This document shows, in pieces, positions 1 to 27,415 of a stretch of 64,000 nucleotides of DNA. The DNA comes from Metellina segmentata (Eukaryota > Arthropoda > Arachnida > Araneae > Tetragnathidae), in the NCBI GenBank assembly GCA_947359465.1, contig OX375873.1, positions 95,777,478-95,841,477 on the forward strand, given 5' to 3'. The notes below the pieces were generated by a model. It was not told where the DNA came from. It saw only the letters and a program-made list of their open reading frames with translations, and ran no database searches. How positions within the stretch are numbered: the stretch's first letter is position 1; each line of letters starts with the position of its first letter. Position numbers and translations under genes: made by a program.

Positions 1-232
1 ATGGATAGGAATTGAGGACACGTGTTGCCACCGGGAAGGTTGCCCTTCTGAATGGGCGCCTTGGCGATAAAAACCACTCTCCTCTTGGCTACCTTTCGTT
101 CATCTTAAATGTTGGTAACCATGTTTGTTTCTGAATGTCCGAGGGATGGGGACAAGAAACAAATATATTCTTTTCAGACTTCCTGGAACGTGATTCAACA
201 GTGACTTTGAAAAGGGAAGGGGATTGCATCTT
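1..232. repeat. Left arm of a long inverted repeat (cut by window edge)
   Basis: This stretch reads as the reverse complement of 3921-4152 with only a few differences. The match begins at base 1, so the arm probably continues outside the window. The similarity stops near 232, where the sequence toward the centre diverges. Such long arms are typical of fold-back elements and of MULE elements. The right arm sits directly upstream of a MULE transposase remnant, so it may belong to that family, but this is inference. Confidence 0.85.
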
Positions 233-284
233 GCATTTCAAAAAACGTGATTTTTCAGAAGAGTGATTTTAAAGTATAAAAGTC

Positions 285-2613
285 AGTGGCGGATCAAGTC
301 AAGTGGGGGCCCCAAGCCCAAGCGGTAAAATTTCGGTGCCCTCAAACTAAATTTAGAAAAAACATTTTCAAGAAAAAAAAAAACTCTCACTAAGTTATTT
401 ACAAAAACAAAGTAATCAAAAATGTCATACCATAAGACATTAGATAAATTTATCAAAACAACATTTTTTACATGATTTTCCGTCTTGCTTATTTCTTAAA
501 ATTCGTCAATTATTTTGGCAGTATCAATTCGATTTAAAAATTCTTGCTTTATATACAGAATGGCCATAGTATTTAATCTTTCTTCTCCCATAATGCTCCT
601 TAAATAATTTTTTTCACGTTTTAAAACAGAAAACGATCTTTCTACTGACGTATTAGATAAGTGAATTGTTAAAAAAAATTCTTTGTTTGTTCTTTTCTTC
701 TATTGATAAATCCCAATAACAAAAATATTCGAAAAGGCTCCACTACAACTTCATACGTCTGAGTTCTTTGAAATAATTCTGCCTTGGTGTAATCACATAT
801 GACACAAAATGAATTGACTCTGGAATTTTTTCTTATTGTAAATTCACATGTCCGACTTTTTTGTATTCATCCAAAAACATTTTATCTTTTTTTTTTGTCT
901 GCGAGGTTTTCAATCTTCCACGTTAAAAGATAGCCCTGATAAATCAGTTACCTCTTTTTCAAATTTTTCTCTGAAGTTATTTATAAAATTTTCTAATGAC
1001 CCTTTAGTAGGATAGATTCTTTCTCAATAGTTCGCATTGCACACTGATTGCAGTGATTAGCTAGAAGCATTTATTATTTGTAAAATAGTATTCCAAATAA
1101 CTGTCATTAGGGCGATTTCATATTTGTCCATTTTCTACAGAAGCGAAGTCGCCTCCACTATAGTAACTTTTTTTCTTCTTCCGAATTACATATTTCAGTT
1201 AAAGCCTCTTTTATATGGGTGAAACCAAGTTTCATAGTTAATACAGCATCTGCTCTTGCTGACCATCTTGTATTAGAAACTCTTTTTACTGAGACGGAAT
1301 GTTTACACCATTTAAAATTTTCAAGCGATGGGTTGACGATGAAAAAAGTGTGAATAAATTCTTCACAAACACATTACTGAATTGCAGCGCTACGACTTTC
1401 TGCAGAGAAATTTCCAATTAAGTTTAAGGAATGATTTAGCACACAGAATAAAAACCGTACTTGGACTATGTTCTTTAATATGTTCTTGCAAATCTGAGTA
1501 CTGCCATGACATATTAGAAGCATTACCAACTGATTTCCCTAGACAGTTTTCAATATATATATATATATCCACTCCTAATTTTATTAAAGTTTTCAAAACT
1601 TTTTGTTCTTTGATGTTCTTGTTATATGATCTATGGGAATGAATTCCACAAACACGTCCTTTATATTATGAAACATCACAGGGATGAAACATCGTACCAC
1701 AAAAGTTAGTAGATCGACATGCAAAACATCGGGAGTATAGTCAACAATTATACTATAGGTCGCACACTTGATTCCTTCAATTATTTCAGCTTTTACTTGA
1801 TTGCAAATAAGACCTACAAATTCGTCTAAAATATTATGAGATAAATAGTTTCTATTTCCTCGTCCATTGTTGGTATATTTTTGTAGGTGTAACTTCCAAC
1901 CTATCAGGAGTCCAAGTAGGTTAAATAATTTCCTTTCCCATTGAATTATTTGCTTTCATCGTAAATACTAATCCTAAGCGGCTCAAAAATTGTATTGTTG
2001 ATATAATTCTATTCAACACACCTCTCCAGTAACATACTTCTTTTTCTGTAATAGTTGAGTAGCAATTCTAATGAATTTTGTTGATCTTTTATACATAGTA
2101 CAGATGACTGACATGTTCTTTCGAAACTTCGTAGTCCGGTAAAAAAACAGTAATTGATCTCCAATTTTGCAAACCAGTTATTGATTTAGACTTGATGTTG
2201 AGTAAAGTTTGCAAGGGTAGCTGTAGACACTTTTTCTAGTTTCTGAAAATATCAACCAATTTCTCTTTTCCATTTTATTTCTTTCTGTAAAAATTATCAT
2301 AAGAAAGTCCTCTTTTTCACTTCATCTATGTCTTTATAAACTGATTTCAAATTCTCTATATTCCCGATATTTTTTGGTTTGTTACTAAGAATATGGTCAA
2401 TAACAGCATCTGTTAATATTGTTGACCATAAAGCTATATTATTTACTACTTCGATGTCTTCTCTATCGAGGCATCTTTCTGGACTATATCTTCTGCGTTT
2501 TCGCAATCACTTTTTACCGGTCACAACTTTCCTCGAACCCTAATGAAAATACATATTAAGACCTCGGGGCCCTACGCGGCCGCTTAGTCCGCGTACCGCT
2601 TAATCCGCCACTG
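285..2613 (-). mobile_element. hAT DNA transposon, decayed, with 8-bp target duplication
   Basis: The element begins CAGTGGCGGATC at 285 and ends with the inverted form TAATCCGCCACTG at 2613. It is flanked on both sides by the identical octamer ATAAAAGT (277-284 and 2614-2621). An 8-bp duplication and CAGTGGCG-type ends are the hallmark of the hAT superfamily. The interior carries a broken minus-strand transposase. The element lies inside the fold-back structure 1-4152, next to its left arm, so it inserted after that structure formed. The length of 2329 bp is close to a full hAT element, but it is not functional. Confidence 0.93.
1390..2530 (-). pseudogene. hAT transposase remnant (ZMYM1-like, TTF-type)
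   Basis: Conceptual translation of the minus strand gives discontinuous but recognisable pieces of a ZMYM1-like hAT transposase. The N-terminal part near 2500-2200 includes a stretch like KPKNIGNIENLKSVYKD. The TTF-like zinc-finger context near 2260-2180 is represented by SVYSYPCKLYSTS. Near 1520-1480 the catalytic-core landmark GNASNMSWQYSDLQEHIKE corresponds to the family motif usually written D-N-A-x-N-M-S. In this copy the aspartate is replaced by glycine. Frameshifts and stops occur throughout, and the C-terminal hAT dimerisation region is not evident. The gene is dead and lies wholly inside the hAT element at 285-2613. Confidence 0.75.
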
Positions 2614-2621
2614 ATAAAAGT

Positions 2622-3920
2622 AGAATAAAATGTACTAAAAATAAATATCAATTCTGCGCTCTCTGACGGCTAAACATTGAGCGGTGAGGCGGTGAGATAT
2701 GACGATCTTGCAGAGATAGACTTTTATGTTTATGTAGAGATTTTTAGCGAATATGAATTATATAACGCATATTCGATAAGCACATTACCAGTTTTTAGAA
2801 TAATAATTATTTTCTTTGTTATGTATTTGTAGTTTTATAAAGGTAATTAAACAGCTGGTAGTGACAGCCGAGGGGTCGGTGCCTTGACCTTTCGTTCAAC
2901 AAGCTCTGGGTTCGAATCCCGTTTTGACATGAATGTTCGTCGTGGTTTGGAATGCACTTGAGGCCACAGATCCTTGCTTATTAATTTCGTTTACATGTCC
3001 CTTCTGCGATGAAGCTCGTTTCTAAATTGAACATTCACATGAACTTTACAAGAATATCACAATACTTTCAAAGATTTTGCTATTGTATCAGTGTCACTGG
3101 TTCAACAGGCTCTAAGTTCGAATCCCGGTCGAAGATGTTGGTATTTGTACGTCCCGGTCTATTGAGCTGTCGTTTGGCAAACCAAACCAAATTCGTTAGC
3201 AATGGTCAACTAGTTTTACACTCTTTCTTCAATTTCTTGTTAGTATACTCACAATTTTCAATGTAATAGTTACGTAAACCGAGAACTGCACAAAAAAATT
3301 GATAATATTTATGGTTGAGTTTTTACGAATTCATTTGAGCAAACGAATTCTTGTGCTCAGCTTAATTTAAGCTTTTAGCAACCCAATATGCCTTGTGTTG
3401 TACTAATTTAGTGATATCACGAACACAAAAGTAAAGAACTTAATTTTATTTCAATTTGACAAAAAGGAATTTTTATTGCATTGATAATATCATTAAGAAG
3501 AACAAAAGTGATGTAATATGGCTTTCAAAAACTCATCGTGAAACAATAGAGAAAACAGTGCTGATCCAGTTATTAGAGTAAATTTGTTGGTTTAGTACAT
3601 TTTTTCTCTTCAGTAAATCCTAAACTAAAAATTAGTTATGCGAATCAAAAATAACAGTATAATAATATTATCACTGGAAAGTGGGAATATTATTAGTCTC
3701 GATCGAGTCTCGAACTCGCGATTCTGGTTGCTAATCCGCGACTCTGCCAGCTGGGTTTCCGCTGAATGGGATTTGCAATAAAGAAATGTTTCGTTCTGAA
3801 AGAAATTTATCATGAATATCGTATAAATTTAATGTGTCATTCTCTCATAATGATGGTGAGTAACTAATTCAAACTAATTGTCTTATCAAATTGAGCATTC
3901 TCTATTTTCCTCGGATGCCG
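2622..3920. other. Non-coding interior of the fold-back structure
   Basis: No convincing gene is visible. The stretch is AT-rich. It holds the SINE fragments at 2845-3165 and a minus-strand tRNA-like fragment around 3690-3765 with the B-box-like GAGTTCGAGACTC. The short open frames here have no recognisable domain. Confidence 0.6.
2845..3165 (+). repeat. tRNA-derived SINE fragments (two)
   Basis: Two stretches resemble tRNA-derived SINE heads. The first, around 2862-2925, has a loose A box and the B-box-like GGGTTCGAATCCC. The second, around 3090-3150, has AAGTTCGAATCCCGG. Neither folds into a complete tRNA with matching acceptor arms, so I call them SINE pieces. They lie between the hAT element and the right arm of the fold-back structure. 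Confidence 0.5.
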
Positions 3921-4152
3921 AAGATGCAATCCCCTTCCCTTTTCAAAGTCACTGTTGAATCACGTTCCAGGAAGTCTGAAAAGAATATATTTGTTTCTTG
4001 TCCCCATCCCTCGTACATTCAGAAACAAACATGGTTACCAACATTTAAGATGAACGAAAGGTAGCCAAGAGAAGAGTGGTTTTCATCGCCAAGGCGCCCA
4101 TTCAGAAGGGCAACAATCCCGGTGGCAACACATGTCCTCAATTCCTATCCAT
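3921..4152. repeat. Right arm of the long inverted repeat
   Basis: This is the reverse complement of 1-232, with a short run of landmarks shared in mirror order (CTTCCTGGAACGTGATTC in the left arm near 179). The arm may continue to about 4320, but the left partner of that part is outside the window. A weaker trace of the same family occurs at about 26370-26420, just upstream of the FLII start. Confidence 0.85.
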
Positions 4153-4320
4153 GCTTTCCCTATGGGAGTGCTCCCCTCCCCCCGCCTTCTCTCGAGAATC
4201 TGGCGAGGAAGGACTTGGCGTGTTGGATTCACAAAAAGCGATATATGATTCAAAACAGGGCTAACAAAATGCATGCCTCGGGATGAAAGTTCGCGAAGGT
4301 CGTAAATATCGGCGTCTATC

Positions 4321-5712
4321 TCCAATAAAGAACTGAGGAACGAGATTCATACAAAGTTAGTAGAAATTTTAAAAGAAGAGGATCGAAATAAGTTTAAAAA
4401 TCTTTTGGATGAATTTTTAAAATCATTTGCATCAAAGGCTACAGATTTCATAAACTATTTTAAAAGTGAGTACTGTAATAGGGTTCAGTTATGGGCAGCA
4501 TCTTATCGCGATTTTCCTCACGCCGAAACAGAAACTAATAATTATTGTGAATCGTTTCACAATCAATTGAAAACGAATTATTTTGGTCGAAAATTCAATC
4601 GACGCATGGATGAACTCGTTAAAGTACTACTAGAAGTAGAAAGAGACTTCCATTTAAACCACGAATACAAAAAAATAATGCAATTTCCTCCTAAATCTAA
4701 CTTTTCTCTATCTGTTAAGTCTAGGCATGATAGGGCTAAAAGAATACCTGATGCTGATGTTGTAGTTTTAAATAGTAAATCTTGGTCTGTTCGTTCGCAG
4801 ACTGTAAAAAACAGATTGTATACAGTGAAGCGAGTAGAAGAACAGTGTAATATGTCCGACTTATGCTATTTTAAATGCCTAGAACTGAGTTGCATGTCTC
4901 TATGCACTCATTTATACCATTGTAATTGCCCTGATAATCATTATTTATGTAAGCACATTCATAAAATACATTCTACTGTAGCAAGTAATGATTTTTATGT
5001 TGATGGGGCTCAAATATGTGTAACGCAAATTACAGAAAATCGCGATCTACAGTCTAGAATAGAAATTGAGAATTTTTCAAACCCTCGTTCAGCCGATAAC
5101 AAAATTGTAGCTTGCGAAGAATTATGTTCAAAATTAATGCAAAAAATTAGAAATAAGTCAGTTCAAGAGTTAATGTTAAGTAATGTTTTTTCTACCTTAA
5201 GCACGTTAGTTGCTGCATGTGACGGAATATCAAGTTCTAATGAAAAATCTTTATCAGTTATGCCCAAGTCTTCAGTATTTCCAAATCAGAAGCTTACTAA
5301 GCAAATTCAGTTTTATAGAACGAGTAGAAAGCGTAAAAATACGAAAAAACCTTTAGATAAGTCAAAAAGGGTAGATCAGTATTTTAGTATTGAGGATACC
5401 GATGACATCCCGTATTTGTATGAATCTCCTTCTAAAAAATCTAAAATTAGTGTCGAATCTTTCACGTGTAAAACAACAGGAACTCCATCACTATATAATG
5501 TAGGTCCATATGTCTTAAACTATTATGTCTTGAAATCTCTAGATCCTTACATTAATGAAAAAGAAGAACATTTTATCAGGTCTAATTTTCCAGATTTCGT
5601 GAAAAGCTGGGTGTATGACGTAATTATAGATGCGTATATATTTTCGTTGTGTGAACAAAACGCTTTTTTTTTCTTTTCTCGATTCATCTATTTCACAATT
5701 AATTTTTTCTGA
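4321..5712 (+). pseudogene. MULE transposase 3' half with SWIM zinc finger
   Basis: This is the C-terminal part of a Mutator-like (MULE) transposase. The frame is open from 4321; an ATG is not needed because the N-terminal part carrying the first catalytic acidic residues is missing (a stop lies at 4303). Near 4540 the segment NNYCESFHNQLK matches the region that holds the last catalytic glutamate in this family. At 4920-4965 follows a SWIM zinc finger, CNCPDNHYLCKHIHKIH, with CxC and CxH spacing. A basic linker (residues about 290-340 from 4405) leads to the start of a Ulp1-type domain (about 5500-5650). The frame is then lost at a run of ten T at about 5664, and the rest continues one frame over in the next entry. 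The upstream boundary adjoins the right arm of the fold-back repeat. Confidence 0.75.
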
Positions 5713-6814
5713 AATTGATTTTGAACCGATTTTGGCTAGGAATATATGTACACTGTCGAAATTCGTATTTATTCCGATTTGTATTAACAATTGTCATTGG
5801 GTCCTAATCTTTATAAGTAAAAGACAAAAAGTAATTTATTTTTTTGACTCTCGGGGTAGTTATAATGACCAAACTGCTCTGATTTGTCTAGAAACGTGCA
5901 GGACCATTTTAAATAAATTAGATAACGCCACCAATGCATGGAGTATTGTTCATCCAGTACACATTTTACAAAAAGATAATGTTAACTGTGGTGTATTCTT
6001 ATGCTATTATGTGCATCAATTAATCAGTAATTCAAATGTCAATAAGGCGTTTGACACATGTGAATTTAGACAGCATATTTATAAAACTTTAACCGGGAGA
6101 AAATCACACCAAAAATTCAACAATATGAAATTTGATGAATTCTCGAAATCAGATGTATGTAACTTTTTAAAATTCGATTACGTCGATAGAAATAATGTGT
6201 CAAATAATGTAGTTAAAGTAAATAGCATTGATATCTCAAATTTTATGTTAAAATCACTAGACGTCAATATAACTCCTGATGAGGAAAACGTTTTATTGGA
6301 AACATCAGAGTGGTTTAGGAAAGGGTGGTTATATGACACAATTGTAGATTCCTTCTTCTATAAACTAACAGAAAACTCCAAAAATTTCATGTTTATTGAA
6401 TCACTCTCGTCCACATCACTTTCACGAAATAACAACAAAGAATTTAAGTTCTTCAAAAGTGGTGACTCACTCAAATCAAATATTTTTTTCCCTGTTAACA
6501 TAGATAGTCATTGGTTGTTACTGATTGTTAATATAGAAAAATATTGTTTTGAATTTTATGATCCTCTGAATGAAATTCCAAGTAAAAAATGTTCTGATTT
6601 GATAAAAAAGTGGAGGGAAATGTTTGATTCATTTTTTAAATCTCCGAAACATTGGTCATTTTCTTTACCTTCTCATGTAAATCAAAAAGACGATATTAAC
6701 TGTGGCGTTTTTATTTGTTACTTCGCATATCAAAAATTAAACGATGCACCTTTGATAGATGATTTTGACACTGTAACTTTTAGAAAGTTCATATACAATT
6801 GCATAATGGGATAA
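5630..6814 (+). CDS. Tandem Ulp1/C48 cysteine-protease domains (continuation of the MULE protein)
   Basis: The open frame (394 codons from the first ATG, probably not the true start) holds two C48 peptidase domains in a row. Domain 1 has His56 in NNCHWVL, Asp73 in FFDSRG, Gln114, and Cys120 in NVNCGVFLCYY. Domain 2 has His294 in DSHWLLL, Asp311 in FYDPLN, Gln352, and Cys358 in DINCGVFICYF. Each is preceded by the same kind of lead-in: VLKSLDPYINEKEEH in the upstream frame and MLKSLDVNITPDEEN here. The pair therefore looks like an internal duplication about 238 residues apart. C48 enzymes cleave SUMO or related modifiers, and some MULE elements carry such domains. The lead-in of domain 1 sits in the upstream frame, so the original protein was probably one fusion, separated by a single-base shift at the poly-T run near 5664. 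Confidence 0.78.
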   Translation: MRIYFRCVNKTLFFSFLDSSISQLIFSEIDFEPILARNICTLSKFVFIPICINNCHWVLIFISKRQKVIYFFDSRGSYNDQTALICLETCRTILNKLDNATNAWSIVHPVHILQKDNVNCGVFLCYYVHQLISNSNVNKAFDTCEFRQHIYKTLTGRKSHQKFNNMKFDEFSKSDVCNFLKFDYVDRNNVSNNVVKVNSIDISNFMLKSLDVNITPDEENVLLETSEWFRKGWLYDTIVDSFFYKLTENSKNFMFIESLSSTSLSRNNNKEFKFFKSGDSLKSNIFFPVNIDSHWLLLIVNIEKYCFEFYDPLNEIPSKKCSDLIKKWREMFDSFFKSPKHWSFSLPSHVNQKDDINCGVFICYFAYQKLNDAPLIDDFDTVTFRKFIYNCIMG

Positions 6815-7145
6815 TACAAGAAAAAATTTATCTCTTCATATTAAAAAAAGTTACTGCCGCAGTTACAGGATTGGAAACTCGCTTTTTCTCTCCCGAGAAA
6901 TTACACAACAGATAATTACGAAATTTACATGGTACCACCATTTTTTTTCTCTTTCAGGGTAAGGAATGAAGCTACATCCACATGTCGTGTCGGGTAGTAG
7001 TGAGTCTGATTTTTTGAATAATTTCTTTTTTCTCTTTCAGGAAAGGAGTGAGGCGATATTCCAGTGTCATGTTGGGTGGTGGTGGGACCGATTCCTTAAT
7101 TTTTTTTTTCTCTTTTAGGAAAGGAATGAGGCGACATACCCGTGT

Positions 7146-7787
7146 CAGGACTCGAAATAAGTCGCGGCAACCACGTCAAATGGCGTGAGCTTAGCTAAAA
7201 TTGTCGCGACGATCAACGGTTCTCACGGCAAGTTTTGCTGCGAGCATTTGAGACACAAAATGTTTCACTATTTCTTTCCAAATACCAGCCATTGAAAAAA
7301 ATTTCAAGAAAAAAACTATGGGTTTTAATGAGGATAAGTGCGGATGGTCTTTCGCTTTCAGATTTTAAGGCTGACCGAGCAGTTCAGAAATTGTTTCGTA
7401 CATCCTTGCAGACCTTGCTTTTAGCTATGTAGATACGAAACAACTGTAATTTTCTCTAGCCTAATTTATTGACTGATGACTTCGTAAACTTGATATTAAG
7501 GAAATAAACGTGTGTATCAACAGTATATTATTTTTCTCTTTATTTCGGATGTATTTTAGGGTTTCATATGAAATTGCAGAAAGTTTACCAGAAAAGTGAA
7601 CAATTTTTTTCTCCTCATTGCAATTTTCATTCAATGGTTTTAAATTTTACTGAAAAATTGACAACTGCAGTTTACCGTCATTATTAAAATTTTAGGTTTT
7701 GCCATGAGCTGAATAGATTTTTCTGCCAGCTTATAAAAGGTCACAGCAATATTTGCCGCCAGCTTCAAAATCTTATTTCGAGTCCTG
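7146..7787. mobile_element. Short hAT element (MITE-like) inside the tandem repeat
   Basis: The ends are CAGGACTCGAAATAAG at 7146 and its complement CTTATTTCGAGTCCTG ending at 7787. It interrupts one 78-bp repeat unit exactly. Flanking octamers ACCCGTGT (left) and GCACATAT (right) match at four positions, and most differences are transitions, as expected for an old 8-bp duplication. No transposase is visible. The ends resemble those of the element at 56687-57179. Confidence 0.75.
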
Positions 7788-7934
7788 GCACATATCATGT
7801 CGGGTGGTGGTGGGACTGATTCCTTCAATAATTTATTTTTTAATTCTCTTTTAGGAAAGGAATGAGGCGACATGCCCGTGTCATGTCGGGTGGTGGTGGG
7901 ACTGATTCCTTCAATAATTTTTTTTTCTCCTTTA

Positions 7935-8068
7935 GGGTAATGGTAATTTTAGTTAACATCGTACTAGAGCAACACAACGGGCTATTGACGACGGTCCGGG
8001 CTCAGTCCCTTAAGGGAAAGATCCGAAGACAACACCTCGTAATTTTGAACCACGGTCAAATGACGATT
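7935..8068 (-). repeat. SINE tail fragment
   Basis: Read on the minus strand this matches the 3' part of the SINE at 15598-15932. It shares the stretches ACCGTCGTCAATAGCCCGTT and GTTGCTCTAGTA. The tRNA-like head is absent. Confidence 0.8.
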
Positions 8069-8322
8069 CTCCTTTAGGGAAAGAATGAGGCGACAGGCCT
8101 GTGTCATATCGGGCGTTGGGACTAATTCCTTATAAATAGAACTTGCTCAGCAAGCAAGCCTTTATTTCGCGTGTTGGATAGCGGAGCCAAAACACATTCA
8201 CACCTGACCCTCACCAAGACGCTTGCGAAAGGAGTGTTGGTTTTCAAAGCAAACCAAATAGGATTGTGTAGCAATAACCGGGGAATTGATAGCGTTACCG
8301 AGCAGGAGGCGGAGCCCCCTAG

Positions 8323-9338
8323 TCGTTAAAAATTATAAGATTTTATTGTTAATTCCTCAGAAGCTCAACAGCAAGTACATTTTTGTAATTAGGATAGAAA
8401 GTCTAAGAGGGGCCGGACAATCAAAAGGTAAGAAGGTAAGTTTTCTTTTTCTTTTTTTTTTGCACAGAGGACAGGGCTCTTGGCGATACCTCTTAAAAAA
8501 AGACGCGTCTGGATTCTTACCCCATTGGGTGATGTGGAAAAAGAATCACCTAATTTCCTTTCTTTGCAGCTGCTAAAAACCATTCTTTGAAGTCACCACC
8601 TTCACGAACCACTGTTTAAAGACGAGTTTGAGAAGATAAATTAAAATTAATTAGTAGACATATTTCCAAAACGAAATACGACTAATAAACACGACTACAT
8701 AAAATGTTTTCTTGATAAAGAAAAGTCATAACAATAAAAACCAAGCTTGTTTTTCCAATAGATCCGTACAGTTCGACGTGAGCACCTTTCGCTCAAAATC
8801 TAGTCGATATTCGACATATCTCCAAGTTCAACATCTATTAAGTTGCTGTAACTAAAACATGAGAGATTTTTTCATGTGTCGTTCTTCGCAAACCTCTCGG
8901 CCCCAGTGGCGTACTCAGACTTCTTAAATAGGGGAGGGGGGGGGGTGAAACGAGTCCGTGTGCAAAAGAAGGCCAGAATGTTGGAATCAATAGGCTTTTT
9001 CACTAGTTCTTTGAGGATTCCAAACACTGACTTCAATGCTAACATTCATGGTATACTACAAGGGAGTACCCAGGATCTTAACTAACTAGGGGGCAGCCCC
9101 AGGGACGAGCGGTGACCCAACTTATTACTCAAGTAGCCTGATGGACGTTATCCCCCCTTTTAAGTGACCACTGCCATCAATCACCATTTAACGAGCTGTC
9201 AGCGTCTGACCTCCTAGAAGGTTCCCTCCTTTCGTTCGACCCTGTCAATCGGTGATATCTATCTTGCGCCAAATGATACTCCATACCGTACTATGAAATG
9301 AAAATGTTAGTCGTAAATGCCACTCACGGCTCTATCAT
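8323..9338. other. Intergenic; lone hAT-like end
   Basis: No gene is visible. At 8904 there is a CAGTGGCGTACTC sequence typical of a hAT terminus, but no partner with a matching target duplication was found. It is followed by a G-run at about 8933-8946. The rest is unremarkable AT-rich sequence. Confidence 0.55.
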
Positions 9339-10187
9339 CAGGGGTGAAAATCTTCCGCGTTTACGCGGATTTCCGCTTTTTTTTTTCTTTCGAGAATTTC
9401 CGCTTTTTTTCCCCTTTTTGAGAATTTCCGTTTTTTTCTTCCAAAAATTTCCGCTTTTTTCTTTGAATTAAATTATGTCATGGAATTACAGCCAAAGAAT
9501 AAATGTAAAAAAAAAAAAAAAAAACAATAAGGAAAGTGTGTCCTTACTTCAGGTAGTAGATTCTTCCGACTTTTCGTAAATTTTGAAAAAATGACCGATT
9601 TTTATCATTTTTTACAAAAAAAAATCCTATTTTTGCCCTTATCAGCTTTTTTTAAGTTTATAGAAGACAAATAAGTCTTGCTAATTCCTTTTTGAAAAGA
9701 ATCCTTTGTGAGAAGCTTATTAGTTTAATGGTAAACCTGGAGAGCTTGGATTTTGAACTAGTTAGCGTACGTTGTTGCATATTTCGTAGGTAAAGCTACG
9801 GTTTCCTAAAAAAGCGGAGCTGTTATCTAAAGGCCGTGAAACGTCATGATGCAGCGGAAAAGGTATAAATGAAATATTTTAAGTTGATCAGCTTTTAATG
9901 TGATTTTTCTTTCAACTAGAAAATAAGATGCTTTGTTATTTCGTCTTTCATGGCAACCTTGGTAAGCGGAAAGTTTAAATTTTCATTTTGAATATTCTAG
10001 AAATTACTTTCAAAATTCGTTAAAACTTCTTTCTTTGGCGACTTTAGAAGTACGCCAAGGCGGTGGCCATCGTTTTAAACATAGACTGCAACTATTTTTA
10101 AAATGATGCTTCTTTTAAGGGCAATATTTATGATTGTTTTAATAAGTTAAATTTTTTTTTTGTTTCTTGGATAATTAGAGTTTTTAT

Positions 10188-12017
10188 CAGGGTGGCGACA
10201 GAACCGGGAATTCAGGGAAATCGGGGATTTCTCAGGGAAGAATCATTTTCTGGAAAAATAAGGGAAAACTCAGGGAAGTTTCGTTTAACTCAGGGAAAAA
10301 GTTGGAATTTCGTTTTGCAAATGGCACCCATTTGGTACTTTTCCTTTAGCCATGCGGGCGCCACTTTGAACCAAAATCAAAATGTCTCCAATTTTGTTTT
10401 CATTCCGAAAATGAGAAGTGTATTTTTTACGTAAACATCCAGAAAAAAGAGTTGTATACATTGTATACTGTAACGGCCGGAAATCCTGTAACCTAAGTCT
10501 ACATCTGTGCCACGTTCCCTAATGTCAATAATAGGAACGTATTGCCTTGCGGCTTTGAAAAATACTAACGGACGGGAAAACCTGCAAAAGTTAAACATCC
10601 GGTTCCAATTGAATCAACATTAAAAAAAAAATTATAATTTTTTTCTAAGATTGGCGATTTTGATTTTGGTCCAAAATAGCGCCCGGCTAACGGAAAAATA
10701 GAAAATCAAACGTATAAGGTATCTATCTGGTGTAAAATTTTCCGCAGCTTTGAAATCCGTTGATATTTTCATTTTATTTTAAACAATCGCTGATTTAGAA
10801 AAAAGCACTGAATAACGCCAGTCATAACTTTAATTATTTCTTTTGCTTCACTTGAATCCGTTACTTTTCAAAATGAATGAATCTCGAATCAAACGAAGGT
10901 CATTCTTCTCGGCGGTGAAATTCGTATTGGAAAAAATATAAAAGTTACAATTTAAAAATTATTTATTTAAAGAAAATCATATTTTTAGGTATCGATCTAA
11001 TGTGAAATTTTCCGCAGATTTCAAATCCGTTGAAATTTTTATTCTATCTTTAACGATCGCAAAGATAGAAAAAAGCAACGAAGAACGCCAGTTCGAACCA
11101 GAACGAGCGAACTCGAATTCGTTACTCAGGAAATCAAAATGAATTAATCTGATCTTTTTAACCACGAAGGTAGAATTCTTCACGGCGCCGGCGGCCAAAT
11201 TCGTATTGGAAAAAATATAAAAGTCACAATTAAAAATTATTTATTTAAAGAAAATCATGTGTTTAGGTATCAATCTGTTGTAAAATTTTCCGCAGATTTG
11301 AAATCCGTTGAAATTTTTCTTCTGTCTTTAACGCGATCTAGGAGATAGAAAAAAGAACTACAAAACTCCAGTTAAAACTTTATTTGTTTTGTTCGTCAGC
11401 TAAAATCGTTGCTGAGAAAATCCAACGAAAACGGAAAAAATAAATTTAGAATGTCATGTCTTTATACCGTATGCCATCCTAAGAAAAATAATAAAATATA
11501 ATAATAATAAATTAATTAATTTTTAAATGTTTTAGATTAAATTTTAAAATTCGGGCGCACTTGAAAAATTGCAAAAAATTCGGACCACATGTTTGCTAAA
11601 TTTCCCTATTGTAAGTGCCATCGATTCGTCAGGACACTGCGTACAGGACAGACAGAAAAACACTTCCGTTTATAATAGTACAGATGTACCGAGCGCTGGC
11701 GCCATTGACGGATTCAGGGGCTGATGGCTGCTTTTGCAAACATATCAAAATAGTTAAAAACGTAACATTAAATATTCTATCTATAACTTTATATTATTTG
11801 GTCTATTATGGAATACAGTAAAAATATTTTTTTCTTATCTTATTTTTATTCATCTTTTAGTCTATAGTTTTTTAGTTCTTCAAGTGTCAAGTTTATCATA
11901 ATTACCGAAGAATTGTTCTGCGAACAAAAGGAGAAACTCAGGGAATTTCATGAAAAATACTCTGGAAATCAGGGAAATCTCAGGGAACTTTTTACTTCAA
12001 TTTTTGTAGCCACCCTG
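10188..12017. mobile_element. hAT-like element with CAGGGTGGC ends
   Basis: The left end CAGGGTGGCGACA (10188) and the right end TGTAGCCACCCTG (12017) are inverted copies. Both subterminal regions are rich in the motif CTCAGGGAA, repeated at about 10215-10310 and 11935-11990. The flanks are T-rich (GTTTTTAT and TTTTATTT), so the target duplication is only partly readable. The centre is occupied by a Helitron-like insertion at about 10690-11684. Confidence 0.7.
10690..11684 (-). mobile_element. Helitron-like element with three tandem internal units
   Basis: On the minus strand the 5' end is TCTGTACTATTATAAACGG at 11684, the same start type as the elements at 31885 and 52566. The interior contains three tandem units of about 275 bp. 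Each includes AAATTTTCCGCAG followed by an AAATCCGTTGA stretch (near 10730, 11005 and 11283). I did not find a clear CTAG hairpin end, so the left boundary is approximate. Confidence 0.6.
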
Positions 12018-12216
12018 TTTTATTTTCAAGTTTATTCAATTCAAATAGAAAATAAGAATATTTACGGAAAAATATAGAGATTTTGAAAAAAAAGTTATTT
12101 TATATTCGAAAATATGTTGTAAATTTAAACTGAACTAAGAAATATTTTTCCTACCACGTGGTTTCAGCTTCAGTCTACGTTTATAGCTGTGCCAACGACC
12201 TGCCCTTGGCGCACTT

Positions 12217-12643
12217 AGGCCCGGTGCACACATCCGGTTTTTCTACGTGCGGCGCCGCTGCCGCAACGCAAGTGCGGTCTGAGATACATTAAATCCAATG
12301 CAGCAGTGCGTACATGCCTCCAGCGCCGCTGGGAAGACGCATGTCCAACTTGCGTGCAATTTGTACCGCAGTTGGCGCCGTTCGGAAGTACCTTGTTTTC
12401 ATAAACAAATAGATTATAAATAATAATTAATAAATGGTTGTATCCAGTAACGTCTATTTTGTTTCAAAATATACTTTTTTTTACGCCAAGTAAGCGAAAT
12501 AAACACGTTTTCTTCGATAGAATATTTATCGCAAATGGCGCGAAATGAGTTGGTGTGTCATTTCACGGTTATGTGTGCATAGTTGGGCTTCGGTGCCGCA
12601 GTGGCGCCGCACGTTGAAAAACCGGATGTGTACCGGGGCTTAA
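12217..12643. mobile_element. GC-rich MITE with TTAA-like flanks
   Basis: The left arm contains GGTGCACACATCCGG and GGTTTTTC followed by ACGTGCGGCGCC. The right arm is the inverted counterpart ending GTGTACCGGGGC. The flanks are TTAG on the left and TTAA on the right, suggesting a TTAA target duplication with one mutation. There is no coding capacity. Confidence 0.7.
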
Positions 12644-13229
12644 GTCGCCAAGGAAAGAATTATTTCGAATGAACCAATGAAATCAAACGACAGTTTAACG
12701 GAATTTAAAAGATTTTTCTGGAATATTCGAAATGCAATTTTAAAAATTTTCCACTTGACCTGGTTGTATTAAAATCCGCAATAACCGTTGTACATATGGG
12801 TTACCTTAACCTGTAATTACTCGCTACTAGAAGTCCGTTGCCATTTCTATAAACCAAGACTGAAGCTGTACCATTTTTATTTTTGGTGTCTAATTATTTT
12901 TTTTAATATAAAATTCATGCTATTTAATAAAAATAGTATATATATGATTTATTCTTTTGTAACAGCATTTTGATTTCCTGTTAATTTCATTTTTGGTATC
13001 AAGGTTTTTGAAAAATTGCAACTCTTAAGAAAATTTTAGCATTGGTGAGGTGTTCAAAAATATTCATAAAAATAACATTTTCAACTTCATCCAACTTATT
13101 TATACTGTTTATAGTTGCCTAGATATTTTTTCTCTTTTACAAAATTTGAGTTTGCACGTAAAGTGCCCACTCCTACTTTTCAAAGACAAATTTCATTGTT
13201 TATAGTGGACTTTATAGGGTTTTTATCAG

Positions 13230-13280
13230 ACTGAAAATTTGCCTACCCCCTCAGAAAAAAATTTCTGGCTGCACCACTGT
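13230..13280. repeat. Lone hAT-like terminus
   Basis: Read on the minus strand from 13279 it begins CAGTGGTGCAGCCAGAAAT, a common hAT end. No matching end with a shared duplication was found; the end at 8904 does not fit. Confidence 0.5.
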
Positions 13281-13393
13281 TCTGTACACACATTAGTACA
13301 CAAATATAGTAATCTTATTCAGCTATTTCTGTACTTCAAAATAACGCTGCATATATTTTCCTCTTTTTTACATTTTGACTGTTTTCACCCCTG

Positions 13394-14224
13394 TATCATT
13401 TAAGTTAGGTAATTAGGTAAGAGGGGTCGGACATGCAGATGGCCCTGCTTCCCTTAAACTTCGCCGCTTCGTTTTACTGATAGCTTTTTCTCCGTGGGAA
13501 AATTTCCACAACTTGCTGCTAATACATCACAGGAACGTGAAGTATCCTTTTACAGATGAAACGGTACGTTTTTGAATCCGTTCTTGCAGAGGAACGCAGC
13601 GCGCGTTTCGAAATTGAATTCGTGTGAACCCTGTTTTTTTTTAGAGGAAATGAATTTTTTTTTAATTGCGCACGAAAAATCTTTCTTCTCCAAATACAAT
13701 TTAAAACTTAAAACCCCTGAAAAGGTGACAAAAAGTCAAAAAAGTGACGTGTTAGGAGCCCTGCTGTAACCATTGAATACTAAAAAATACTACTAAATAA
13801 CACTAAATAAGAAATAATACTAAGAAAAGGCTACTGAAATTGTCCTACTTTCCTAAAGGTCAAGTGTTTTCGGAAACAAACCAAATAAATTTAAGGGGGA
13901 AACAGAGCATCCAATTTACGTCGTACTAGACGTACTAGCTACACAACGGGCTATTGACGACGGTCTGGAATCAATCCCGAAGGAAACACCCGAGAACAGA
14001 ACCACGGTCAGTTAACGAGGCAACACCTGAGCTAGCACCACACTTCAAACTTACACACCACGCAAACGCGAGGACATTTCAGCCACGACGGATTTGACGT
14101 ACATCAGCTTCATCTACACGGCGGTGTTTTAGTTGGCAAGTTTCGGAGTATCTCCAAAATTTGAAATTGTTTCTTAAAGATTTTATTGCAATTTTGGTTT
14201 TTGTTGTATTGCTTCCACAGTAAA
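13394..14224. other. Intergenic with minus-strand SINE
   Basis: No gene is visible. About 13925-14115 is a minus-strand copy of the SINE tail and central part, containing GGGCTATTGACGACGGTC. The remainder is unassigned. Confidence 0.6.
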
Positions 14225-16428
14225 GTCCCGTCCACACCGGAGAAGCCGAGCAAAACATGGATGATTGATTAACCCCGGAGACAGGTTTGATTGACAGTTC
14301 GTTCAGTGTAGACGGTGAATTGAGCAGTTTAAGCACGAGCAAAATGATCCGCTTCTTGTCGGTACATCAAAGGAAAGCAAGTGCTCGTGCTCGCTCTATT
14401 TGGACGGCGTTTTATCGTTCCCTTGCTCGACGTTCAATCAATCACCGGGGTCATCGTTAAGAAACGGGTCGGGGATCTGAACATAGAAATACTTATTTTT
14501 CTTCAGATTTTAAAGTGATAATTGATTCAGACCGTTCTTAAACAGTATGATGGGTGTACATGGATTTTCTAATGTAAATAGTATAAATGATACAGGAAAT
14601 CTCACATGCTATCTTGAATAGAGGAAGAACATTTTAAGGAGGAAATGTCCCTCAAGCTCATCCAGTGATTAGGGTCGCGCAATACCTGATGAACTTAATT
14701 ATTTGAATCGGGAAGGTATCGTTTCGTTTTACAGTTCAAAGATTTCAACTGGTTTAATGGCCGCATGACTAAACTACCACACAGGTGCAAATATGTTACT
14801 CATTAATAAATAGATTGTAAAGGAGAATTCTATTAAAAAAGTGTACAAATGATTATTACATTTGAAGACCAAGTATAAACCGTTATAGTCATTGAAGTTA
14901 ATCAACTAATTCGGACTTCATCAGCACCGAAAACATAATAGGAACCTCAAATCATTTATCCTCACAAATATAGTGTAATTATCCCGTTGATTATCCAAAC
15001 CTGTCCCCCATTACTTTAAGTACGTTAGTCCGTAGTTTGTGAAGTGTTCTCATCTAGTTCAGTTTCACTGACAGTTGTCCCGCAATTGTACCGCTTTTTA
15101 ACAGCTCGAGTTTGTTGTTTTTAAATTTAACAGTTCTACTTGATTTCTTGCAAGTTAAAAGTTAAGCTCTACTGAATACATTTCATACTATTATTTAAGT
15201 AGTACATTTGTAAACATTGTGTTTTGCCATATATCGTAGACGTTTAAAACTTAATTGTGAAAATGTAACATGCCCATATTAATGTCAAAATTGATGTGTC
15301 CATCCATGTGTATTTAGACGAAGAGTGGTATTGGGGAACTTTGCAATTTAAACTTCTTCTAAATTTCTTGAACTTCTAAATTTAAGATAAAGAAGATGAG
15401 GCTAGTTAAAATGTATTTCACTTTTTTGCAATTGAAGAAAATTTTAAATTGTCGCACTGGCAATATGAATACGTTTTGTCGAAATAGGCCGAATCGAAAG
15501 AAACATTCAATATTATGTAACATATTATGAGTGAAATATTCAGTAAGAAATTTTTATCTTGTTAATTGAAATAATCTGCTTAATAATAATAATTTTGTGC
15601 CGACCAACCGGTATGGTGGTAAAGGTGTTAGCCTCTAGATAGGAAAGTTCCTGGTTCAAATCCGGATCCGGGCAAGGATGTTTGTAAGCGTATGGTGTAG
15701 AAGCGGCTGGTGCACCTTAAATCTGTCGTGACCGAGAGTCCTCACGTTGGGTTGTTATGGACGTTTGGAGAGTGGGGTGTTAGCTCAGTTGTTACTTCGT
15801 CATCTGACAGTTGTTCAAAAATTACGACGTGTTGTCCTCGAATCTTTCGCTTAAGGGATTGATATCGGACCGTCGTCAATAGCCCGTTGTGTTGCTCTAG
15901 TACAACGTTAATCAAAAACTACCAATTACCTTTAATAATAATTTTGCAAGTACGTATGTATAGAAACTTTGAAGAGGATCATCAAACTCGTGAAGGAATC
16001 TCCAGTTGCCAAGAAGCGTAAAGTTATTGCCAACCTTTCTCTTGCAGATATAGCACTTCTATAATTAGTGTCCTACTTCCTATTTCCGGTTCAGTCAAAG
16101 CAAGTAGATATTCAAAGTCACCCAATGTCGCCTTTTTTTGTGAACTTTTCTTCCTATTTCTCTTTAATAAATCGTCTATGATAATATACGCTGCACTCGC
16201 GATTATACGCCGACTTCGTAAAGAACGGGACCTTTAAACAATTTGCTTCAAACAATAAGTTTGCAGTTTAACTTCAACGCACAACCAACCAGATTGATCG
16301 CGAGCACATGGAACGATTTGTGCCCGAGCTGTCGAACCAGGAAAATCAGAGAGATTGATTAACCAAACCTGTCTCCGTGGTGAATCAATCATCCATGTTT
16401 TGCTAGGCTTCTCCGGTGTGGACGGGGC
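14225..16428. mobile_element. TTAA-type DNA transposon, non-autonomous
   Basis: The left end has CCGTCCACACCGGAGAAGCC followed by AAAACATGGATGATTGATT. The right end holds the inverted copy with a few differences, giving arms of about 65 bp. The right flank is TTAA at 16429-16432 and the left flank is TAAA, probably a mutated TTAA. A TTAA target is used by piggyBac and a few other superfamilies. No transposase is recognisable in the 2.2 kb. A SINE sits inside at 15598-15932. Confidence 0.75.
15598..15932 (+). mobile_element. Full-length tRNA-derived SINE with 14-bp target duplication
   Basis: The head GCCGACCAACCGG at 15599 leads into a tRNA-like region with a B-box-like CTGGTTCAAATCCGG. A unique body of about 250 bp follows, ending in GTTGTGTTGCTCTAGTACAA. 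The 14-bp sequence TAATAATAATTTTG occurs exactly before (15584-15597) and after (15933-15946) the element, as expected for LINE-driven insertion. It is the reference copy for the fragments at 7935, 13925, 16640, 25430, 27880, 49335 and 49690. Confidence 0.9.
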
Positions 16429-16639
16429 TTAAGAAATATGAAATGAAGAATTCAGAAGCACTCTGAATAAAATATAAGTTAGATAATATGCTGCGGAAAA
16501 TTGCAAGAAGAAGGCAAAATTCAAAGTTTGCTACATTTGCCAAATGTTCTTGAATAACAAAAAGATTAGCATGTTTCACATCTGATATTTTAATATGGCT
16601 AAAAAACTAGGCGAAGTTCAGACTTTTTTCGTAAACAAA

Positions 16640-16835
16640 GATCGCCGTGTAGAGGGTACTGGTGCACGTTAAATCCGTCGTGGCCCAATTGTCCTCACGA
16701 TGCTGTTGAAGTTTGAAGTCAGGTACGTCATCTGACCGTGGTTAAAAGTTAGGAAGTAGTATTCTCGGATCTCTCCTACGGCATTGATCCTGGACCGTCG
16801 TCAATAGCCCATTTTGTAGCTCTAGTACAATGTAT
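16640..16835 (+). repeat. SINE fragment (body and tail)
   Basis: This matches the body and tail of the SINE at 15598-15932, including GGACCGTCGTCAATAGCCC. The head is missing. Confidence 0.8.
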
Positions 16836-18758
16836 ACATTGAAACTTCCTTTCCCTTCTTTTTTTTCCTTCGTCAAGCGGTGGGCAAGTGAAGGAAGCAT
16901 GCCGATTTCTTACAAAGTAACACTAAAGACTATTAAAAAACAGCTTTTGCTGACAGCTTTTTTCTTACAAGAATAAAAATCAATGAGCACGTTTCGATTC
17001 TGTCACTCATCTAATGAAAAAAATATTTTTGTCCTTTGCTTTATGACAATGGTCGTTAACAAATTTCAATCACAAATTCAATGTAGCCTTGCCATTCGAT
17101 TCCGCTTGAAATATTATATAAGAATCAATCAAAAAAGTTATTTTTCCAATTTTAGCATTTATTCCCTTATGTAAAAACTTGTTTCAATTAAATCTATTTA
17201 TTAGCTGCACAACTTTATAAACTCTTAGAATACCCTCAAGGGGTCTTCCCCGGGGAGCTAGCTGGTCAAAAATCAACCACAACAATCGAGATGACAAAAA
17301 TATGACGTTAATTTAGTTTCACAAAGTTTATTTCAGAAGACCATTACATATTCATGAATTGTTTTTCCATTTGAAAGTTTGTTGAAGCATTAAACTTAAC
17401 GGTCTTGAAGACCCCAAAATATATATTACTTACTCATAAAACTAACCTTTGTTTAGAAGACCCTGTAAGACAGATGTCTTCTTTGAATAAATATTTGTTC
17501 TAGGTATTAACTACAATCACTACAGTAATAAATATACATATAATACAATGTGATTGTATATATAATTCAATCTTGTTCTTTCTTCTTTAATGTAAGAGAA
17601 ACAAAGTAAGGAAACCAGTTCATTTTCTGTTTTAGAAAATGTTATTCTTGGCGTGTTACTGAGAGCAAGAAAAATGTACAATTCAAATGATCAATAGATC
17701 ACCATGGTAATAAACTATGACGTTTGCAGAGAAATTAAATTAAATGCAAGACCAAAACAAATTCTCCATCTTTCAGAAAAATTCCATAACAACCTAGTCA
17801 ATATTAATAACTCTACCATCCATGTCATGGATGAAAACGTGCAAAAAAAAATAAATAAAAGATCAATGTATTATCTACAGAACCACATAACATTCTGAAC
17901 CACTGAACTACACCCTGTTTTGTACTTTTCCTAGCAGCTAATATGTGAAGCCAACATCACGCCATCGCCGAAGTAAGAAAAAAAAACCTGACAAGCAAAA
18001 ATACGCAGAAACAGTTTGGGGTTGGAAACGATTGTCCTCTTCAAACGGGATTACCCCTCTTGATGACCCGGCAAAGAAGGAGTTAAACCCGTGGTTCAAC
18101 CAACTCCTCTCGCTCAGGACATCAATAAAACACTTTTCTTGTTTTTTCTGTGTGAATTTTATGTGCGTGAACTTTAAATTGTTTTTTCAACTTTGCACTC
18201 GGATAACAGATTATTAAAGCACTTTCGAAATTTATTGTTTAAGTGGAAGTGTTTTCGAAAATCGTAAGCCATGTGTCCGGGATTTATGGGAGCATACCCT
18301 TGATCAGCCTGGTAAAGTGCATATGTTATAATGGCCTGGTAAAGTGCATATATCTTAAGGCGCAAAACATTAAGTAATAATTTCAATAAAAGTTAATGTT
18401 TTGTAATGCTCTTGAATTTTACAGTCAAGTACACTCAATAAAAGCTATTAGAAGCAAAAAACAAACTTTCTCGGATATGATGTTCTTCTGGAGTTCGAGG
18501 ATGATCTATGAGGGAATATATAAATAACAAAAAGGCTTTAAAATTACTATTTTACATGCATCCCTTAAGAAATTGGCTTTATTTTCATAAATGTGTAGAA
18601 AAACAACCAACGGCTACACTCTCGATACTTTAGAAATAATAATAGATACTGCTATGTGTTTTTGGACTTATATCACATGTTACTCATTTCGAGAAAAAAT
18701 ATTTTGCTTTTGTAGAAATAATCTACCTTTGTTCACTGAAAGTGCAAAAGGTAGTATG
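16836..18758. other. Intergenic, no gene seen
   Basis: AT-rich sequence with only short, unconvincing open frames. A small direct duplication of GGCCTGGTAAAGTGCATAT-like sequence lies at about 18305-18352. The 3' LTR of the BEL/Pao element begins at 18759. Confidence 0.6.
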
Positions 18759-19066
18759 TGTTCCGTTTTGGATATCGGAATCAGAAGTAATCCAGAGTGT
18801 AGTAAACTGTTCCATAAAAACGTCTTATATCACAAGTACTCAAACAGTTTACTTACAATTCTCATACGTACACTCTGCTTTAAATCACAAAATAACACTC
18901 AGCAGCATTTATGGCGTAAATAATATACAATTTTCTCTAGCAAAATTCTAAAATCAACTCAAAAGCCATTCTCTGCGTATATCACAAAAACTAGACTGTT
19001 GCCATTCGCAACTTAACAAATATATCAAAACAAAGATAATAATCAGGGTAGAGTATAAATCCAACA
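18759..19066 (-). repeat. 3' LTR of the BEL/Pao element
   Basis: 308 bp, TG at one end and CA at the other, preceded on the plus strand by the target duplication GTATG. It appears identical to the 5' LTR. Confidence 0.96.
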
Positions 19067-19077
19067 TTCTCCCACCT
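19067..19077 (-). other. Polypurine tract
   Basis: On the minus strand the sequence directly before the 3' LTR is AGGTGGGAGAA, a purine-rich stretch in the position where plus-strand DNA synthesis is primed in LTR retrotransposons. Confidence 0.75.
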
Positions 19078-19153
19078 AAGTTAACTTTCATCTTAAAATT
19101 TAACTTATAACTAATTATAGTCACAATTACAATAACAAAATTATATAAACAGT

Positions 19154-22100
19154 TCACAAGTCCAGCTTACGAGGCATCTTAATGATACGGCCACCTCTAG
19201 TTTTTCTTGCCTCCTCAGAAGATTCAATATTGCAGTCAACTGATTGACTGACTTCTGGTTGCTCACTTGATTTTGTACCTGGTAACTTTTCTCCTACTAG
19301 AACTGACTTTGCTGCTGACACTTCTAAAGGATAGAGGCGTTGTATCGGTCGAAGCAACTCACCCCTTGCAGTTTTTAGTCTTACAAGCCTTGTAACTCCA
19401 TCTTTCCCTGGGATTACCTCCACTATTTTCCCAAGGGGCCAACTGATACGTTTCGTGTTGTCGCTTCCAATCAAGACGACGTCACCAACAGCTACTTCGG
19501 CAGCCCTTTTACGTTCTGGTCTCTGAAGCAGAGCTCCCAAGTATTCCGATCGAAATCTATTTCTTAAGGCTTTTTGCAAATTGTGTCGATACTTAACACG
19601 TTTGTTAATACTCTGATGATCAATTCTATCACAGTCAGGAACACCACTCTCTTTGATGTCTTGTAGGAACATCGAAGGAGTCAAAGGAACCAGCTCTGCG
19701 TCATTATCCGCGACGTATGTCAACGGTCGAGAATTGATTATGGATTCGCAATCACATAACACCGTCGTCATCTGTTCATAGGTTAAAGTAGATCGGCCCA
19801 GTACTCTTCTCAATAATCTTTTAAGAATACCGATCAGTCTCTCCCACCATCCACCCCACCAAGAGGCAGTCGGTGGGTTGAATTTCCACTTAATAGGATG
19901 AAGAGCAGTGTCACTCACAATAAGGTTCCAATCCACCGCACTTAGCAAATTTGAAGCACCCACAAAATTGGAGCCATTATCACAATAGATAGTGCTGCCT
20001 CGTCCTCTACGGGCTATAAACCTGCGCAAAGCCATTAAAAAGGATTGCGTAGATAAAGAATCCACTAATTCAATGTGTACTGCTCTATATACAGCGCATG
20101 TGAATAGACAAACCCAAGTTTTCTTATTATCTCTGAGAAACAGTGGTCCCGCCAGGTCAACACCGCAGATCTCAAACACAGCAGCCTCTCGTACACGGTC
20201 TTCTGGAAGAGATGCAGTGAGAGCATCAAGCTTCTTTGCAGAAAGTCTCTTACAAACAATACATTTGGATAAGATGGATCTCACTGTCTTTCTACCATGC
20301 ACAATCCAGAATCGCTCTCTTAAAATGTTAAGCAGTATTTGAGTCCCAGCATGAGCATTTTTTACATGATAGTGCATCACTATACGATTTACAACTTCGT
20401 GTTTAGATGGTAAAATTGCAGGCATTCTAAAATCTTTACTATCTGGTCGATATAAAAGTTTTGTTTTCAATCGGATGATATCGTCTTTATCTTTGAAGGC
20501 TCCCACAGTTTTCAACTTATCATCTTGTTCATTAACGAAGCTTTCTTTCTGTATTATTCTGATAACTCCATACTCAGCTACAGAAATTTCTTCGGAATCA
20601 AGGCTACCATATTTTCTAGTATTTCTCGGAATACGACTATTATTAATGAATCGAAGTAGCCAGGCAATAATTCTTATAGTTTTGCTATAGCTCGAAAACT
20701 TATAGATGAAGGAATTGTCGATATTTTGAAGGTTCACCATAGATGATACTATTTCCTTCCTCTTTTCTTTCAACACTTCTTCTTTATTTACGGAGAATTC
20801 AGATCTAGGCCATTCAGCAGATGGGTAATAGAGCCAAGTAGGTCCTTGCCACCACTCTGTCTCCAACAATTGTCGAACGGAACAACCTCTGGAGGGTAGA
20901 TCTGCCGGATTCATCGATCCAGGTACATAATACCAATTTTCCGGTTTACTCACTAATCTAATTTCTCGTACTCTGTTATATACAAATGGTGTCCAGTTTT
21001 CGCTGCCTTTTATCCAATACAAGGCGTTACTGGAGTCAGTCCAAAAGAAGGTTGGAATATTTCCCAAGTTCAAATCTGCTATAACTCTTTGCCACAGTCG
21101 GGTACCAATAGTGCACGCTAACAACTCCAACCGAGGAATTGTAGTAGACTTCAGCGGAGCTACCTTGCACCGTGCTTGAACTAGTTCACATGAAGTTAAG
21201 TTTTTACTTTCATTCCTTAAAAATATACAGGTAGCATAAGCTATTTTGCTCGCGTCACAAAAAACGTGTAAACTTAAACTGCAGGTATCATCAGAGTCTT
21301 TTATTAAACATCTAGGGATAGCAATTTCCTTAAGTAGATTCAACTGTTTTCTCCACTTCTCGAATTTTTTAGATATTGCTGGTGGTAACTCCGAATCCCA
21401 AGTTGTTTTCATTTTCCACAGTTCTTGTAACATTAGTTTCGGGTACAAAGTCACTGGACAGGTAAACCCAATAGGGTCAAAAATTTTGTGAACTTCCGAC
21501 AGTATTTTTCGTTTAGTAACAGGTCCATTATCTTCGCAAACTTCCTTTAAATTTACAGAAAGAGTATCTGAGTTTAAAACCCATTGCAGGCCTAATACCG
21601 GGATAATTTTATTTTTAACACAAGAAACCTCTTCTGTTGAGAACTGGGAACAATTGTGCTCCCACCCTCTAAGGTCAAACTTCCTTTCTGACATAATACC
21701 TGTAGCTACTTGAATGAACTCATGCAATTCTGTCTCAGTTTTTACACTAGTTAAACAATTGTCCACGTAAAAACTGTTTTTAAATTTCTGAACGATATTC
21801 ACAGGATATTTTGAGTTTCCAAGTTGTGCTTCCTCCAAAATCGTTTCTAGATGATATTGAATCACAGAATTAAGTAAGAAAGGGCTACTAGAAATTCCAA
21901 AGACGACCCGACAGTGTCTAAAATATTTCAGTTCATTGTTTTCATTATACCAAAGAAATCTTAAATAGTCTTTATCGTTTTCTTGTAGGCAAATTTGTAA
22001 AAATGCTTTACGGATGTCCGCCGTAACTCCAAACTTGTTCATCCGAAAACGTGTTAATATAGTGGGGATTAACTCCACAAGGTTTATTCCTTTCTCCAGG

Positions 22101-24460: not shown

Positions 24461-24537
24461 AACAATTCCGAAAATAGTATAAACAATTCAGAAAGTAGGA
24501 TAAACAAACAAAAACTCACTCATTAATCAGCAGTCGA

Positions 24538-24555: not shown

Positions 24556-24557
24556 GA

Positions 24558-25910: not shown

Positions 25911-25936
25911 TATATATATATATATATATATATATA
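25911..25936. repeat. (AT)n microsatellite
   Basis: A pure run of alternating T and A, about 26 bases. Confidence 0.95.

Positions 25937-27338: not shown

Positions 27339-27415
<77 letters not shown>

Follow-up and report, generated by a model that had tools for sequence, protein, structure and literature searches.

What role do two consecutive Ulp1-type (C48) proteases play behind a transposase in a spider genome, and does the pair belong to an element or to one unusual copy? The question is raised by positions 4,321 to 6,814 of a 64,000-nucleotide stretch of Metellina segmentata (contig OX375873.1, positions 95,777,478 to 95,841,477 of the forward strand), hereafter the window, in which part of a Mutator-like element (MULE) transposase, a SWIM finger and two C48 domains follow one another. 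The tandem C48 pair is a standing feature of the element in this genome and occurs in at least three subfamilies with a common architecture; the duplication is old, both catalytic sets are conserved and constrained, and the element has been copied recently. Our best explanation, to which as a whole we assign a probability of roughly 0.72, is that the window contains a frame-broken, 5'-deleted copy of a spider MULE transposon gene. Its longer relatives encode one long protein with C2H2 fingers, a DDE transposase, a SWIM finger and two tandem C48 proteases, to which an N-terminal SGNH domain is fused in one subfamily C frame, and the proteases would strip a ubiquitin-like tag near the transposase.

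Pfam recognized two Peptidase_C48 stretches (E 5.8e-22) in the 394-residue frame at 5630-6811, and the PF02902 profile and the His-Asp-Gln-Cys set are present in both domains. The eight catalytic residues named in the initial annotation were confirmed at their codons, namely His56 (5795-5797), Asp73 (5846-5848), Gln114 (5969-5971) and Cys120 (5987-5989) in domain 1 and His294 (6509-6511), Asp311 (6560-6562), Gln352 (6683-6685) and Cys358 (6701-6703) in domain 2. Modelling predicted a Ulp1/SENP fold for both halves (mean predicted local distance difference test score, pLDDT, 77.6), and the top sequence and fold matches of the domains are likewise Ulp1/SENP. NCBIfam matches to IS256 and XopD were weak, far under the cut-off, and were disregarded. 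The two domains of the window copy are 27% identical (55/201 positions), and their shared lead-in, motif and fold bear out the internal duplication that had been proposed.

Searches of the species' own genome covered 1.665 Gb in 173 contigs. With the 394-residue pair as query, 105 matches were scored among 612 candidates, so that all counts are lower bounds. At least 60 of the 105 span both domains, that is, run from residue 15 or earlier to residue 386 or later, and the other 45 are partial. Related elements therefore do not carry one domain everywhere, although single-domain relatives occur too. The two-domain matches fall into subfamily A, to which the window copy belongs (25, 90-100% identity), subfamily B (24, 55-63%) and subfamily C (11, 38-42%). 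The longest stop-to-stop frames reach 1435 residues in A (the C11 copy), 1613 in B (L013 and L014; this open frame is found in eight subfamily B rows) and 1999 (L016), 1791, 1752 and 1612 in C, with the layout C2H2-MULE-SWIM-C48-C48 in all three subfamilies. In L016, Pfam placed a GDSL/SGNH hydrolase, C2H2, ZSWIM1-3 RNaseH-like and MULE domains and two C48 stretches in a single frame. PF10551 was above the cut-off in L016, L013, L009 and L020; C2H2 was above it in L016 and weaker in the other frames. The DDE triad spacing D-61-D-113/114-E and the SWIM pattern CxCx6CxH were found in five of five long frames checked. A fourth family, S, represented by L019 and L020, shares this layout except that it carries a single C48 domain. 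Dispersed, multicopy insertion of these MULEs was thus confirmed within the genome.

A pair of this kind might have arisen by the chance joining of two element copies with one C48 domain each, and deletion derivatives and nested copies are indeed common in the genome. However, three subfamilies with long open frames have this order of parts and this linker in common, and the domains group by position rather than by protein. In a first tree of 18 domain rows (17 different), a branch with support 96/95 set the six domain-1 rows apart from all others, and another (79/87) did so for the six domain-2 rows. A second tree of 17 rows with further relatives gave 94/95 for domain 1 and 91/83 for domain 2; long branches were flagged for S, Planococcus and Stegodyphus. 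A topology uniting both domains of subfamily A was rejected (approximately unbiased, AU, test, p 5.3e-5), which contradicts a chance join and leaves it with a negligible probability. Domains 1 and 2 of one protein are 27-32% identical, and the same domain is 59-64% identical between A and B. Since domain 1 groups with domain 1 and domain 2 with domain 2, the duplication is old.

Among named proteins, most of the nearest belong to the spiders Stegodyphus, Caerostris and Araneus, with Planococcus and Bemisia more distant. The terminal stretch of the Stegodyphus protein P0001 aligns with the linker and the lead-in of domain 2, a hint that the tandem pair may predate this genome. One C48 domain is present in Araneus P0009, Bemisia P0011, Planococcus P0008 and its likeness P0007; the points at which single-domain relatives join the tree are poorly supported, and these proteins may reflect the loss of one domain or a late gain of the pair. 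The protein searches considered candidates of 0.55-1.75 times the query length, and one of them was confined to the 7995 candidates with the most words in common with the query, so that two-domain proteins of other spiders may be missed by these filters.

The ratio of nonsynonymous to synonymous substitution rates (dN/dS) was determined in seven comparisons, and in six of them both domains fell within 0.15-0.32. Between C16 and C09, domains 1 and 2 gave 0.30 and 0.28, the MULE-SWIM core 0.11 and the tail 0.43. For A against B the two domains gave 0.18 and 0.15 at a high dS of 1.4, and the comparison of A with C16 is close to saturation. Values of 0.75 and 0.76 for the closest pair, C17 and C16, carry no information, as their intervals extend beyond 1. 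This pattern indicates that both C48 domains are constrained, less tightly than the transposase core, and the constraint is seen between subfamilies whose frames unite transposase and proteases.

The initial annotation had offered selection on the protease part as one reading of two active sites retained beside a truncated transposase, and on this point the copies speak against it. Among 30 subfamily A loci, 7 extend past the deletion point (3 of them with frames above 1300 residues), 6 carry the window's deletion (type 1), and 16 carry a larger deletion that spares the C48 region (type 2); the remaining one, L048, begins too far downstream to be classed. Variants from the majority in type 2 copies comprise 9 silent changes, 29 amino-acid changes and 4 stops; the resulting share of 33/42 changing or stop variants compares with 81% under an absence of selection (p 0.69). 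For the 7 longer copies the figure is 12/19 (p 0.07), which leans towards constraint, and a direct comparison of this share in truncated and full copies shows no significant difference (Fisher p 0.36). Retention of the protease for its own sake after truncation was therefore rejected, as type 2 copies drift as if neutral; we infer that they were moved in trans. The same data bear on a domesticated host gene for a double protease, which would explain why both domains are constrained. Such a gene would not be expected at 35 or more subfamily A loci with 89-100% identity on many contigs, nor to have truncated copies that drift neutrally, and these observations rule it out for practical purposes as very improbable.

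Subfamily C offered further observations. L016:1924-7920 holds an SGNH/GDSL hydrolase region on the 5' side of the MULE, fused to it in one frame. Such a region lies upstream of, and outside, the long frame in L009, L010, L013, L019 and L020, and one is also precomputed for Araneus P0006. No SGNH domain was detected in the subfamily A sequence examined, and a limited search of the open-access literature listed no MULE with an SGNH hydrolase. L010:1827-5429 (minus strand) is a mosaic, its MULE-SWIM part being nearest to L016 (dS 0.055) and its C48 pair nearest to L009 (dS 0.07-0.08). This suggests, from sequence comparison, module exchange between subfamily C lineages, and dN/dS values from mosaic copies need to be taken with care because their parts have different nearest relatives. 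Elsewhere, C11:35187897-35322427 contains dozens of consecutive 94-residue frames spaced by about 1370 bases and matching mostly positions 39-129 of PF02902, seemingly a SENP-like exon amplified as a satellite.

The window copy itself (Table 1) departs from the long frames in two ways. The C11 copy matches window positions 4136-4320 and resumes at 4318 after about 3.45 kb. Only the Glu part of the DDE triad is kept, as the Glu of YCESFH (4549-4551) upstream of the SWIM pattern, and the Asp-Asp half is deleted. A Pfam search with the window's own truncated frame gave neither a MULE nor a SWIM match, and its assignment to the MULEs is based on alignment with longer relatives carrying PF10551/PF21056. 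In addition, a run of nine T shifts the frame 5630-6814 by one base against the frame 4306-5712, which places about the first 59 residues of domain 1 in a different frame from the remainder. Of the initial description, the SWIM and transposase piece and the two domains stand, while a single open frame does not; likewise, the catalytic intactness claimed for both domains holds for the residues and not for the translated product of this copy. The poly-T pattern was matched in 18 of the 30 subfamily A copies examined (12 gave no match), with eight T in 13/18 and nine in 5/18 (L021-L025, of which L021 is the window's own). The identical 394-residue frame, break included, occurs at two other places in the genome, from which the supposed youth of the copy follows.

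Table 1. Features of the window discussed in the text (coordinates in window positions)
Feature	Position	Strand	Basis
Segment of a young interspersed repeat that holds the MULE remnant and measures at least 28.9 kb, counting the BEL insertion	1..26453	.	copy comparison
Inverted partner arm, extending about 141 bases left of the window	1..232	-	
Inverted-repeat arm beside the MULE remnant; 373 columns, 95% to the inverted partner	3921..4292	+	
C-terminal piece of the MULE transposase, followed by the SWIM finger, a charged tail and the beginning of C48 domain 1	4306..5663	+	single frame
Junction left by the deletion of about 3.45 kb that the longer element has (N-terminal zinc fingers, two catalytic Asp)	4318..4320	+	C11 copy comparison
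SWIM-type finger CxCx6CxH, CNCPDNHYLCKH	4921..4956	+	sequence
C48 (Ulp1-like) domain 1	5488..6112	+	Pfam, alignment, fold model
T9 run, one-base frame break inside C48 domain 1	5664..5672	+	frame comparison and copies
Linker between the C48 domains	6113..6202	+	low model confidence, pLDDT 33-51 over three ten-residue blocks
C48 (Ulp1-like) domain 2 and stop codon	6203..6814	+	Pfam, alignment, fold model
Nested BEL/Pao retrotransposon with an open frame at 19154-24487	18759..24864	-	

The remnant is embedded in a much larger repeat, whose right end is sharp at 26453 and whose left end lies beyond C1:95774978. Window positions 8300-16000 recur at full length at 15 other places (18 scored) and positions 15800-18700 at 33 (40 scored). 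The 2.5 kb preceding the window have 24 full-length matches elsewhere, with one more reaching base 2497 (40 scored). For 24860-27200, 40 places were scored: 24 others share one starting base behind the BEL insertion and terminate no more than 5 bases from 26453, seven stop early at query positions 1290-1437, and the remainder are fragments. At some early-stopping places the terminus pattern follows 5-19 kb further on (e.g. C2, C3, C11), as if DNA had been inserted. The 6.1 kb BEL insertion is missing from the compared copies, in which its flanking positions are about 53 bases apart. A copy on C12 was traced piecewise across 22.8 kb, and the C11 long-frame copy spans at least 26.2 kb (C11:7392875-7419048), with two gaps in the comparison inside that span.

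It is close to an even chance, though slightly less, that this repeat is a nest of ordinary elements travelling together and not a single giant MULE. Besides a hAT remnant and the BEL insertion it has arms in head-to-head orientation, and 12 kb of it lack any frame of 120 residues or more. Its left end was not found, and with up to 3 mismatches allowed the right terminus had no partner that paired with the left side of a copy; a candidate pair of facing termini lies 26.4 kb apart at C11:107497905 and 107524340. On the other hand, adjacent queries recur in order at many places, 24 copies have a common right end to within 5 bases, and subfamily C alone exceeds 10.9 kb. MULEs are typically bounded by terminal inverted repeats and an 8-11 bp target-site duplication; in subfamily C a sharp terminus, GGGTCTTACAGAAA, marks the left side of seven loci, with the opposite end beyond reach.

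Several neighbouring features were recorded as well. The nested BEL/Pao element (18759-24864) is young, with an intact frame of 1777 residues and many near-identical copies genome-wide. Between the inverted arms, 496-699 (minus strand) matches the hAT dimerisation region (PF05699, E 2e-5) and is a broken transposase remnant. The right end of the repeat lies 106 bases before an ATG at 26560, and 27229-27651 gives a weak leucine-rich match (E 0.005). The frame starting at 26560 presumably corresponds to the start of flightless-1, in which case the repeat abuts the 5' end of a gene. Positions 33597-33962 hold a DDE_3 transposase remnant, probably of mariner/Tc1 type, with a score just under the cut-off.

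Judged by their families, the zinc fingers of the long proteins would bind DNA, the DDE core would cut and join it, and the C48 domains would remove a ubiquitin-like tag. The transposase part would bind and move the element, presumably also in trans, as deleted copies recur at many places. The fused proteases might then remove SUMO or a related tag close to the transposase, possible targets being the transposase, factors of host repair or silencing proteins that depend on SUMO, and thereby allow transposition; two domains could provide avidity for tag chains or two specificities. Transposon silencing in animals can depend on SUMO. That the tag is SUMO is conceivable at a little under even odds. 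Activity of both domains on ubiquitin or NEDD8 instead, for example to shield the transposase from degradation, is a less probable option, as the closest sequence and fold matches are Ulp1/SENP. For Sleeping Beauty, added SUMO1 is described as reducing the boost from the host factor HMGXB4 (PMC10138897), and a role of Ulp1 in transposition has been proposed earlier (PMC2836005). A more far-reaching proposal would be a spider lineage of giant MULEs of at least 26 kb whose single long protein unites a transposase, two deconjugating proteases of specialised function and, in one subfamily, an SGNH hydrolase. Such a transposon would strip SUMO or related tags from its own chromatin or from repair complexes, the two domains being divided by tag or between chain and mono-tag; we regard this as unlikely.

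Why Ulp1-like domains are found on unrelated transposases has been described as an open question (PMC2836005). The lineage reported here duplicated its C48 domain and retained both catalytic sets through deep divergence, and the presence of two-domain MULEs, single-domain sisters and protease-only deletion copies in one genome makes the purpose of transposon proteases testable. Ulp1-bearing MULEs as such are already known in plants and animals (PMC2836005). No tandem C48 pair in a MULE was found in the open-access literature, where a single query was aimed at exactly this arrangement; this agrees with the view that a two-domain animal MULE is unusual, and a scope without Repbase makes it weak evidence that such elements are unreported. 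Plant MULEs with Ulp1 include Kaonashi/KI, melon elements and VANDAL20. These likewise combine a MULE with a C48 protease, as do the hydra and lancelet Mutator elements of Repbase; the account consulted mentions a tandem pair for neither group, the former differ also in their plant hosts, and both are compared by description (PMC2836005). Ginger1 elements with Ulp1 or OTU share the C-terminal tag protease, whereas their transposase resembles Gypsy integrase and one protease type is tabulated per family (PMC2836005).

Closer in host range are the Ghost clade and other arthropod MULEs, with spider and aphid hosts, a SWIM finger (PMC6446971) and a DDE core; the words 'ulp', 'c48' and 'peptidase' are absent from the main texts of both PMC6446971 and PMC13359780. 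Ghost MULEs have 84 positions, gaps counted, between the two Asp (PMC13359780), and our 61 residues from Asp to Asp and 113-114 to Glu fall outside the Ghost figures, although those counts include gaps. The arthropod survey, which includes spiders, gives elements of 1.4-10.0 kb and transposases of up to 1136 residues (PMC13359780); with frames of 1435-1999 residues and longer elements, the spider MULEs described here extend the size and domain range reported in that survey. Our protein searches returned arthropods and two unnamed records. A counterpart in layout is P0010, a metagenome protein of 755 residues, which also has two tandem C48 domains with a related lead-in and in which Gln replaces the catalytic His of domain 1. 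Unlike the spider pair, its domains are sisters (52% identity, 100/100), and joining either of them to the spider groups was rejected (p 7.8e-5 and lower), which points to an independent duplication in P0010.
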